A stretch of DNA of 64,000 bases, taken from the NCBI GenBank assembly GCA_030834695.1, contig JAUQXK010000101.1, forward strand, positions 62,001 to 126,000. The letters are read 5' to 3'. The notes below the pieces were generated by a model that saw only the letters and a program-made list of their open reading frames with translations, was not told the origin of the DNA and ran no database searches. The DNA is from Desulfobacterales bacterium. GTDB lineage: Bacteria; Desulfobacterota; Desulfobacteria; Desulfobacterales; SpSt-501. Of this stretch, positions 54,539 through 57,509 are shown one piece after another (the first letter of the stretch is position 1; each line of letters starts with the position of its first letter). Made by a program: the position numbers and the translations under genes.

Positions 54539-54596
54539 GCACACACACTCGGCGCGCGGCCCGCTGCCGCCGGCCATTCATTCGGAAGGAGGAGCC

Positions 54597-57248
54597 ATGG
54601 GAGAACTTATGCGGACCGTGTTGCATGATCGTCATGCCCGCCTCGGAGCCACCCTGGTGGAATTCGGAGGCTGGGAAATGCCCGTGCAGTATCCCGCGGG
54701 CATCGTCCAGGAGCACCTGGCGACCCGCCGCCGGTCCGGGCTTTTCGATGTTTCCCACATGGGGCGTTTCCGACTGCGCGGCGGAGACGCGCTGCCTCTG
54801 CTGCAGCACGCGCTCAGCAACAATGCCGCAGCGCTGGAGGTCGGCGAGGCTCAGTACACCATGATCCCGGCCTCCGACGGCGGAGCCCTGGACGACGCCT
54901 ATCTTTACCGGTTTGTGGCCGAGGAGTACCTGCTGGTGGTGAACGCCTCCAACCGTCAGAAGGATTGGGAGCACTTGAATGCGCTGGCCCGGAGCTATCC
55001 ATCGGCAGAGCTGACGGACCTCACCGCGGAGCTTGCCATGCTCAGCCTTCAGGGCCCGGCCGCAAGAGACATCCTGGCTGCGATCCTGGAATCCGGCCGC
55101 CTACCGGAGCCGCTGCGCAATCGCCTGGGAAGCGCAGCCTTCGACCGCACCCCGCTGCTGCTGGCCCGCACCGGATACACCGGTGAGCCGATCGGCTTTG
55201 AGCTTTTCATCGACGCTTCCACGGCGCCGGCGCTTTGGGACCGGCTGATCGCCGAAGGGGCTCAGCCGGTCGGTCTGGGGGCGCGAGATACGCTGCGCCT
55301 GGAGGCCGGTCTGCCGCTTTACGGGCACGAGCTGGGGCGGGATCCCGAGGGCCGCGACATTCCGATCTTCGCCTGCGGCCTGGCGCGCTTTGCCGTCAGC
55401 TTTTCCGAGCTGAAAGGCGACTTTGTCGGCCGGGAGGCACTGGGCCGGCAATTCGATGCCTATCGACGCATCCTGGGCCGCGACTTCAGCCGCCGCGCCG
55501 ATCTCCCCCGCCTGGTTCAACCCATCGCTATTGTTGAAAAGGGAATTGCCAGGGCCGGTGCACGGGTGCTGCGCGGCGGCCAGCCGGTCGGCACCGTCAC
55601 CAGCGGCACGATGGTGCCGTACTGGCTGAGTGCGGGAGAGGGTATCGACTCGGTGCAAACCGAGGAGAAGGGCATGCGCGCGATCGGCCTGGCGCTCGTG
55701 GACAGCGATTTGCGGGAAGACGACGAGGTCGAGGTCGACATCCGCGGCAAGCGGACCCGTGCGGTCATCGTGCCCTATCACCTGCGCAACGAAGCCCCGC
55801 CGCGGGCCTGGCCGATTGCATGGAACGAACAGCGCCGCAGCCGGCGGGCGGCCGCGGCGAGTGCCGATCCACTGCCCAGGGTTCGCGCGCTGGTGGAAAA
55901 GGCCGCGCGCAACCACACCTGGCGTCAAGGTGAATGCATCAATCTCATTCCCTCCGAGCAGACCGCTTCGCCCATGGTACGGTTGCTGTCGATCACGGAC
56001 CCGGCCGGGCGCTATGCCGAACACAAGGCCGTCAAGGCGTTCAAGGAGGCCGATGTCTTCTATTACCAGGGGACCGACTTCATCGCCGAGGTCGAGCAGT
56101 CGCTGGCGGCGGAGCTCAAAGCCTATCTGGGTTGCAGCGAAGTGGAGGCCCGGACCATTTCCGGCCAGATGGCCAACACGGCGGTCTTCAGCGCCATGGT
56201 GGATCATCTCAACCGCGCCGACCGCAAGCGCGAGCAGGGCCGCCTGCGCAAAGTGATGAATCACCACATCATCCGGGGCGGCCATCTCAGCGCCCAGCCC
56301 ATGGGCGCGCTGCGGGATTTCGTCATGCGCGACAGCCGGTGGGAGAAACCGGCCGTCGTGAATTTTCCGGTGCTGCCGGAAAATCCTTACCAGATCGACA
56401 TCGCAGGAACCCGCGTGCTACTGGCCGAGCACCGGCCGGAGCTGATCATTCTCGGAAAGAGCATGACACTGCATCGCGAGCCGGTTGCCGCGATCCGCGC
56501 GGCGCTGACCGAGCTGAACCTCGACGCGGTCTTGATGTACGATATGGCCCACGTGCTCGGGCTGGTGGGACGGCATTTCCAGCGTCCCTTCCAGGAAGGC
56601 GCGGACCTCGTGACCGGCTCGACGCATAAAACCTATTTCGGGACCCAGCGCGGCATCATCTCGGCGAACGTCACCCCCGAGCATCCGCGCTATCCGCTCT
56701 GGGAGGCCATCCAGCGCCGGACTTTCCCGGGCAGTCTCAGCAATCACCACCTCGGCACCCTGCTCGGCCTGCTGCTGGCGGCCTATGAAATGAACCACTT
56801 CAAGGAGAGCTATCAGCCGGCCGTCATCGCGAACGCCAAGGCCTTCGCGCGGTCCCTGGCGGACGCCGGGCTGGATGTGGCCGGCGATCCGGCGATCGGC
56901 TTCACCGAGACCCACCAGGTCATCGTGCGGGTCGGCTACGCCAAAGGCGCCGAAGTCGCCCGGCGGCTTGAGGACAACCACATTGTGTTGAACTACCAGG
57001 CCGCACCGGATGAAGAAGGCTTCACCGCCTCCGGCGCACTGCGGATGGGTGTGCAGGAGATGACGCGCTTCGGCATGCAGCCGGCCGACTTCGCCGAACT
57101 GGCGCAGCTCATGGCCGACTGCACCCTGAAACGCACTCCCGTGAAGGATGCGGCCATCCGTCTGCGCCGGCGTTTCCTGGAGATGCGCTATTGCTTCACG
57201 GGCAGCGCGGCCGACGAGTTGATGGCGAAGCTGCATGCCTTGATTTAG
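54597..57248 (+). CDS. Fusion of glycine cleavage T-protein and serine hydroxymethyltransferase-like enzyme
   Basis: The 883-residue protein joins two complete enzymes. Residues 1 to about 405 are a GcvT aminomethyltransferase (FGGWEMPVQYPAGI, FDVSHMGRF, GGALDDAYLYR, GYTGEPIGFE). After a short Arg/Ala-rich linker, about 430-883 is an SHMT-like PLP domain (NLIPSEQTASP, DMAHVLGLVG, and the PLP lysine in STHKTYFG). T-protein produces methylene-THF from glycine, which SHMT uses to make serine, so channeling is plausible. The frame is continuous. ATG at 54597 follows AAGGAGGA. GcvP and GcvH are not in the window. Confidence 0.92.
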   Translation: MGELMRTVLHDRHARLGATLVEFGGWEMPVQYPAGIVQEHLATRRRSGLFDVSHMGRFRLRGGDALPLLQHALSNNAAALEVGEAQYTMIPASDGGALDDAYLYRFVAEEYLLVVNASNRQKDWEHLNALARSYPSAELTDLTAELAMLSLQGPAARDILAAILESGRLPEPLRNRLGSAAFDRTPLLLARTGYTGEPIGFELFIDASTAPALWDRLIAEGAQPVGLGARDTLRLEAGLPLYGHELGRDPEGRDIPIFACGLARFAVSFSELKGDFVGREALGRQFDAYRRILGRDFSRRADLPRLVQPIAIVEKGIARAGARVLRGGQPVGTVTSGTMVPYWLSAGEGIDSVQTEEKGMRAIGLALVDSDLREDDEVEVDIRGKRTRAVIVPYHLRNEAPPRAWPIAWNEQRRSRRAAAASADPLPRVRALVEKAARNHTWRQGECINLIPSEQTASPMVRLLSITDPAGRYAEHKAVKAFKEADVFYYQGTDFIAEVEQSLAAELKAYLGCSEVEARTISGQMANTAVFSAMVDHLNRADRKREQGRLRKVMNHHIIRGGHLSAQPMGALRDFVMRDSRWEKPAVVNFPVLPENPYQIDIAGTRVLLAEHRPELIILGKSMTLHREPVAAIRAALTELNLDAVLMYDMAHVLGLVGRHFQRPFQEGADLVTGSTHKTYFGTQRGIISANVTPEHPRYPLWEAIQRRTFPGSLSNHHLGTLLGLLLAAYEMNHFKESYQPAVIANAKAFARSLADAGLDVAGDPAIGFTETHQVIVRVGYAKGAEVARRLEDNHIVLNYQAAPDEEGFTASGALRMGVQEMTRFGMQPADFAELAQLMADCTLKRTPVKDAAIRLRRRFLEMRYCFTGSAADELMAKLHALI

Positions 57249-57272: not shown

Positions 57273-57509
57273 ATGTCCGAAATCAGGATGACCGGAGAAC
57301 TACGAACGGACTACGACTGCGAAGCCACCGGGCTGCCGGCCGAACGCTGGGCCGAGGCGGTCTTCAAGGTGGGCGGCGAGGAGATCGTCCTGGAGATCAG
57401 CGTGGAAAAAGACGTGATCGTGGCAATCATGGCCGGCGAGGATACCGCCTGGAAAGGCACGCTGGCAGGATTAAAACAAATCCTGCGCGGCGAGATCAAG
57501 GCGAAATAG
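57273..57509 (+). CDS. Small conserved protein between GcvT-SHMT and nitroreductase
   Basis: The 78-residue soluble acidic protein starts 24 bases after the fusion gene and ends 9 bases before the next, with GGAGAGG as ribosome binding site. It has no membrane segment and no lipoyl-lysine motif, so it is not GcvH. Function is unknown; the tight spacing argues for a role linked to its neighbours. Confidence 0.7.
   Translation: MSEIRMTGELRTDYDCEATGLPAERWAEAVFKVGGEEIVLEISVEKDVIVAIMAGEDTAWKGTLAGLKQILRGEIKAK

Follow-up and report, generated by a model that had tools for sequence, protein, structure and literature searches.

What does a bacterium do with a glycine cleavage T-protein and a serine hydroxymethyltransferase (SHMT) built as one chain? 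In well-studied organisms, the glycine cleavage system (GCS) and SHMT, which interconvert glycine and serine, are separate proteins. The question is raised by a gene at positions 54597-57248, + strand, of a 64-kb stretch of a Desulfobacterales genome (contig JAUQXK010000101.1 of assembly GCA_030834695.1), here called the window, whose numbering is used for its features. The gene encodes 883 residues, with a T-protein (GcvT) as the N-terminal half and an SHMT-like enzyme, dependent on pyridoxal phosphate (PLP), as the C-terminal half. Our reading is that the protein is probably a bifunctional glycine/serine enzyme joining glycine cleavage to serine formation. Specifically, the T half would take the aminomethyl group from lipoyl-H-protein to give 5,10-methylene-tetrahydrofolate (methylene-THF) and ammonia, and the SHMT half of the same chain would form serine by transferring this one-carbon unit onto a second glycine. 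The net reaction would convert two glycines to serine, CO2, and NH3, or run in reverse. The notion is that the fusion ties glycine cleavage to the serine node and that separate SHMTs serve general biosynthesis. Interconversion through methylene-THF is proposed because a T-protein, a linkage to the GCS, and an SHMT-like half come together here. Two known enzymes, one of them divergent, are thus joined in a widespread protein of which we found no description in a PMC literature search, a search covering titles and the beginnings of abstracts, with bioRxiv, most subscription journals, and database annotations of the isolate proteins outside its range.

A preliminary description of this DNA had reported a single 883-residue frame with complete motifs of both enzymes, including the PLP lysine, and both points hold. 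The frame is open from ATG 54597 through 883 codons to a TAG ending at 57248. Pfam places GCV_T at residues 9-249 (E 2e-74), GCV_T_C at 361-393 (E 2.9e-10), and SHMT at 435-838 (E 2.7e-31), values far past chance. The T half spans residues 1-403 (54597-55805), a variable linker residues ~404-430 (55806-55886), and the SHMT-like half residues ~431-883 (55887-57245), all on the + strand. The genome assembly is in draft state (149 contigs, contamination 4.96%), the kind of material in which assembly or annotation could join two genes. That explanation has a negligible chance of being right. A scan of genome contigs for the family gave 481 stretches that code for a relative; the 80 best were retained, and the 80-locus counts below refer to them. 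All 80 encode the two halves in a single frame, which in 71 covers nearly the whole query (from residue 10 or lower to residue 860 or higher). A contig end cuts it in L037, L069, L085, L098, and L099 (L-numbers denote loci, G-numbers relative genomes, and C-numbers contigs). Four others, all draft bins, show a stop or frame change in the first 41 T-half residues (L038, L044, L052, and L075). The family has firm members in the isolate Desulforhopalus singaporensis DSM 12130 (L048), in a Calditrichales contig of 1.7 Mb (L068), and in Desulfoluna limicola, whose chromosome is finished (L042). With the finished chromosome and the isolate in hand, two separate genes wrongly joined are ruled out for the family.

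A search for the fusion in other Desulfobacterota had been suggested, and it is found there, as in Desulfoluna and Desulforhopalus. It is widespread in anaerobic bacteria. The best 80 loci carry eleven phylum names by NCBI label, with four rows unlabeled; the count is approximate, as many are metagenome bins and bins labeled Deltaproteobacteria are filed under Myxococcota. In a panel of 58 genomes, comprising the window's own and relatives, the fusion occurs in 24, including all seven of the window's genus. In 21 of these 24, the match covers the whole length or most of it; in G042, one of the 21, a TGA falls inside the match. The other three are G040, with a 975-aa frame matched in two pieces, and G013 and G038, each with two pieces on separate contigs. 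The G040 version (G040:C9:74429-77272) has a longer stretch between its halves. A study of GCS evolution in Desulfobacterota dropped sequences with a domain structure unlike its queries (PMC12827605). In the portion of that paper available to us, the terms "fusion," "fused," and "GcvT" are absent and the T-protein is treated as GCST; the filter would hide such a fusion from the survey. Surveys that filter on domain structure can miss proteins of this type.

By family, the T half is a genuine T-protein, and its conserved residues and gene context suggest that it very probably works as one. It passes the GcvT cut-offs of TIGR00528 (257.1 bits, cut-off 235.85) and NF001567 (316.8 bits, cut-off 300). 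Its predicted fold matches nine T-protein entries of the PDB (Z 43.8-47.1, root-mean-square deviation [rmsd] 1.8-2.1, 354-365 residues aligned), among them 1yx2 (Z 47.1, rmsd 1.9, 355 aligned) and 1wos (Z 46.2, rmsd 1.8, 355 aligned). In an alignment of 81 fusions, 59 columns are identical in at least 79 of the fusions and in Escherichia coli GcvT. Asp99 and Asp100 (codons 54891-54896, + strand) are among them, and they are invariant in 49 aligned rows. Asp99 lines up with the catalytic Asp97 of E. coli GcvT, which is altered in PDB entry 3a8k (D97N by its title). The half resembles GcvT in its complete domain order, its catalytic Asp, its fold, the curated cut-offs that it passes, and its place in operons of other genomes; unlike GcvT, the fusion bears an extra C-terminal PLP enzyme of ~450 residues. 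The T half also matches GCV_T-fused oxidases and demethylases, namely dimethylglycine oxidase, sarcosine oxidase alpha, and trimethylamine N-oxide demethylase. In those proteins, GCV_T handles the one-carbon product of its partner, a flavin or metal enzyme. Their chain ranges put GCV_T at the C terminus, whereas the fusion has it at the N terminus, with a PLP enzyme as partner.

Gene context points the same way. Counted as a lower bound, gcvPA, gcvPB, or gcvH lies near the fusion in 30 of the 80 loci, and in 20 of the 45 that have at least 2.5 kb on both sides; L082 has the order fusion-gcvH-gcvPA-gcvPB-lpd. Within the 58-genome panel, a P-protein is found in 23/24 fusion genomes versus 15/34 others (Fisher p 4e-5). 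Stand-alone GcvTs, meaning frames shorter than about 550 aa and counted by hand, are missing from 13 of the 23 fusion genomes that have a P-protein versus 1 of the 15 such genomes with no fusion (p 0.002; 0.004 when the window's genus is counted once). Because the genomes share ancestry, the Fisher p values given here and below overstate independence. In 36 fusion genomes picked from the 80 for variety, the fusion is the sole GCV_T protein in 21. By such counts, the fusion is the only T-protein candidate in many carriers with a P-protein. As a separate observation, in an Oscillospiraceae bin (L101, 7001-11085) a stand-alone GcvT, 50% identical to the T half of the fusion, lies downstream of it.

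The window's own genome offers a further arrangement. Contig C121 (L162) carries a gcvH-gcvPA-gcvPB-lipB-lipA stretch with no gcvT, followed by an alanine-racemase-like gene (named by eye), and the same T-less order appears in seven relatives examined (G001, G002, G003, G004, G034, G045, and G050). In G008 and G047, the fusion adjoins the P genes. Contig C104 (L143) of the window's genome holds a second GCS with its own gcvT and lpd, and contig C119 a further stand-alone GcvT; thus, the fusion is not the sole T-protein candidate there. The separate gcvT and glyA that the preliminary description had wanted sought are both present, off the window's contig. We considered the idea that the fusion stands in for missing GcvT and GlyA in its own genome and rejected it: that genome encodes two stand-alone GcvTs as well as two further SHMTs, and the C104 system has a gcvT of its own.

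What kind of SHMT is the C-terminal half? It had been described as deviating from canonical GlyA. The deviations are real and shared across the 81 fusions, but trees mark the half as archaeal-type, not a deviant GlyA. Specifically, in a 46-sequence tree, 13 GlyA rows split from the archaeal-type SHMTs and the fusions with support 100/100. The half meets the Pfam SHMT cut-off (109 bits versus 27), and its best PDB match is Methanocaldococcus jannaschii SHMT (4bhd/4uqv; Z 39.9, rmsd 2.4, 391 aligned). The genome also encodes a stand-alone archaeal-type SHMT on contig C111 (L002, 1483-2769), 44% identical to the fusion half. With M. jannaschii SHMT and C111-like Desulfobacterales SHMTs, the fusion half shares the non-GlyA side of the tree (100/100), the PLP-site residues, a His-Gln pair, and a similar C-terminal part; it differs from archaeal-type SHMTs in a seven-residue insertion in loop 1, folate-side substitutions, a long stem branch, and its GcvT partner. 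A partial row for the transaldolase ObiH, on a branch of 6.89, falls among the fusions in the 46-sequence tree, and the fusion group is whole in 20% of 200 bootstraps. When that row is left out, all 20 sampled fusion halves group together (support 100/100, 100% of 200 bootstraps). A single origin of the fusion followed by transfer between phyla would fit these trees.

The equivalents of E. coli Ser35, Tyr55, Glu57, Tyr65, His126, Asp200, His203, His228, and Lys229, which we take to be PLP and substrate residues, are kept in 81 of the 81 fusions, and that of Arg363 in 80, with one gap. Among folate-binding positions, the equivalents of Glu57 and Phe257 are kept in all 81 and that of Leu127 in 80/81. 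Lys678 (codon 56628-56630, + strand), the Schiff-base lysine corresponding to E. coli Lys229, is present in every fusion. The residue after a Ser-Glu pair is Met in 41, Gln in 37, and Asn in 3 of the 81, and His follows Tyr-Ala-Glu in all of them. Measured against the nearest relative, dN/dS is 0.10 in the SHMT half and 0.13 in the T half. Because the PLP-site residues are conserved and the half is under purifying selection, as strong as that on the T half, we judge it intact by sequence and not dead. A dead SHMT half, or one left as a structural remnant, is therefore very improbable, even with the points that speak for it: a missed NCBIfam SHMT cut-off, other SHMTs in nearly all genomes, and three short segments at or close to the active site (residues 470-472, 561-568, and 711-716) where the predicted local distance difference test (pLDDT) of an AlphaFold model is lowest, below 50. 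These stretches presumably lie near the active site and dimer interface of SHMTs, and the low values would reflect a dimer contact absent from a monomer model.

Several observations weigh against the bifunctional reading. The half misses the NCBIfam SHMT cut-off (NF000586, 233.8 bits versus 335), as do two relatives (255.6 and 270.5), and the C111 SHMT of the same genome passes it at 399.8 bits; we thus term the half SHMT-like and do not file it in that subfamily. Gly58->His, Gly66->Gln, Ser99->Gln, and Asn347->Gln relative to E. coli are each found in 81/81 fusions, and Lys346 is replaced by Tyr or Phe; of these, the changes at positions 58, 346, and 347 count against the reading, as Asn347 and Lys346 presumably form the folate side in SHMT. 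Seven extra residues (482-488; 56040-56060, + strand) interrupt loop 1, the folate/substrate loop, between Tyr-Ala-Glu-His and Tyr-Tyr-Gln-Gly throughout the family, as judged by alignment with E. coli GlyA, the GlyA of the same genome, and the C111 SHMT. Another SHMT is present in 24/24 fusion genomes of the panel and in 34 of the 36 picked fusion genomes. Serine genes lie near the fusion in 5 of 80 loci only, in a search seeded from 24 inspected loci. Finally, a search of the window's contig found no other SHMT, GCV_T, or P-protein gene. To these points is added the relatedness of the genomes, noted above.

If the C-terminal half does not use folate, it could be a PLP aldolase or transaldolase of the threonine aldolase or L-threonine transaldolase type, and the fusion would join the T-protein to a different reaction that forms or uses glycine. 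ObiH (7k34) is the next PDB sequence match after M. jannaschii SHMT and is level with it in the fold comparison (Z 39.0, rmsd 3.8, 423 aligned). The insertion sits in loop 1, a region that binds folate in SHMTs and by whose length transaldolase clusters can be told apart (PMC10495429). PMC8072733 lists F58, W68, F70, and H324-Q325 as transaldolase motif residues, and the His-Gln pair is invariant in the fusions (H773 and Q774 in 49/49 rows). The pair also occurs in M. jannaschii SHMT and in the C111 SHMT, however, and so does not discriminate. The Glu equivalent to E57 is kept in 81/81 and its neighbor, on an assumed register, is His, not the transaldolase Phe58; the loop insertion makes the W68 and F70 positions unplaceable. 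The fluorothreonine transaldolase model gives 126 bits versus 234 for the SHMT model, and the 126.3 bits stand far under its own cut-off of 650 (TIGR04506), a weak test since that model covers a two-domain enzyme. Thus, like the L-threonine transaldolases, the fusion half has the PLP fold and an altered loop 1, and unlike them it has His at position 58 and an association with GcvT and the GCS. The constant fusion to a folate enzyme and the GCS linkage favor folate chemistry, and the SHMT half is probably folate-specific; the folate-independent alternative is unlikely.

The bifunctional reading must also accommodate the other SHMTs. Apart from the fusion, the window's genome encodes two, the C111 enzyme and a GlyA. 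Five of the six genus mates carry a C111-type stand-alone SHMT and the sixth, G002, a more distant one; in G001, G003, and G006, the only other SHMT found is archaeal-type, kin to C111. The presence of another SHMT in nearly all carriers speaks against the fusion simply replacing GlyA, and the fusion looks like a GCS-bound second SHMT, not the general one. The fusion's SHMT half is the sole SHMT in 2 of the 36 picked genomes. Around one of these, in a set of 41 genomes that includes it, a fusion-type SHMT match is found in 16 (in three as fragments only); no other SHMT is found in 4 of these 16, and no SHMT at all in 3 of the remaining 25 (p 0.40). Given that p value, draft incompleteness would explain the sole-SHMT cases. 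Around the second (60 genomes, itself counted), there is one further fusion genome only, and 12 genomes have no SHMT match. In the Oscillospiraceae genome of L101, no SHMT other than the fusion was found.

A role in glycine/serine one-carbon metabolism, as the preliminary description had proposed, is partly supported, by the GCS operon context and by serine genes in a few genomes, and is qualified by the stand-alone gcvT and glyA elsewhere in the window's own genome. Neighbors were inspected by eye in 24 of the 80 loci, and the finds were then searched across all 80 and the window; most other inspected loci have unrelated neighbors. In L048, an L-serine ammonia-lyase gene, over its cut-off, lies 43 bp upstream of the fusion. 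SerC (over its cut-off) and a SerA-like gene (below its cut-off) lie downstream in L060. SerB-like ACT-HAD genes occur in L073, L097, and L102, and the L102 copy, when tested, is below the SerB cut-off. Downstream of the fusion in L102 (8119-13489) come a gene whose homologue in L073 lacks a Pfam match, then the SerB-like ACT-HAD gene, a class-V aminotransferase that reaches no NCBIfam cut-off, and an FAD oxidase that is GlcD-like by Pfam; L073 and L097 also have the first two of these genes. By analogy, the cluster is reminiscent of a glycolate-to-glycine route or glycolate salvage. As functional context, these neighborhoods are suggestive only. An L-serine dehydratase is encoded in 16/24 fusion genomes of the panel versus 7/34 others (p 9e-4; 6e-3 with the window's genus counted once), a co-occurrence that would fit a flow from glycine to serine to pyruvate. 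In Desulfovibrio, glycine reductase is part of the reductive glycine pathway (PMC7547702). Pairing of the fusion with that enzyme is unsupported: in the relative panel, the only full-length GrdB match is in G036, a genome with no fusion.

Do the two sites of the proposed bifunctional enzyme hand methylene-THF to each other? Linker residues 401-429 show 24-76% identity to eight relatives versus 60-91% for the halves, and they form a low-pLDDT block in the AlphaFold model, whose mean pLDDT over 883 residues is 89.0 and whose predicted template modeling score (pTM) is 0.86. Such a pTM would be unexpected for two halves of equal size with undefined mutual position, so a fixed packing of the halves is likely on the model. 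Direct passage of methylene-THF is unproven, and the model's defined mutual position is the sole hint of it. There is nearly an even chance that both halves are active and fused for equal dosage or co-localization only, with methylene-THF equilibrating freely. The variable linker with its low model confidence agrees with this, as do the separate SHMTs and, in the window's genome, the separate GcvTs, which would make bulk methylene-THF available anyway. The defined packing that the pTM suggests argues against it, as does the single grouping of the sampled fusion halves across phylum labels, which implies that the linkage has long been kept. A bolder and somewhat unlikely proposal is a dedicated glycine/serine synthase, in which a single chain would take the one-carbon unit from the lipoyl arm of H-protein to PLP-bound glycine with no release of methylene-THF. 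Such an enzyme would have arisen a single time, when a bacterial GcvT was joined to an archaeal-type SHMT, and would then have spread across phyla, with the rebuilt loop 1 as its hand-over device. A natural and widespread fusion is a testable case of substrate channeling in one-carbon metabolism, and the protein could serve as a part for engineered glycine/serine pathways.

An alternative start of the fusion gene, ATG 54537, would give 903 aa with the same TAG ending at 57248. Position 54597 is the better start on sequence grounds, since a Shine-Dalgarno-like GGAGGAG (54588-54594, + strand; read directly as AAGGAGGAG) stops two bases short of it and the alignments of relatives begin there. Upstream in the window lies an OsmC-type gene on the opposite strand; downstream are a gene for a 78-aa protein (57273-57509, + strand) and a ferredoxin-nitroreductase gene. 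The 78-aa protein has no Pfam match. Its gene has its own Shine-Dalgarno sequence, starts 24 bases past the fusion stop, and is possibly co-transcribed with the fusion. In 7 of the 80 loci (L023, L024, L029, L032, L034, L039, and L085), it again follows the fusion at a distance of no more than 451 bp.

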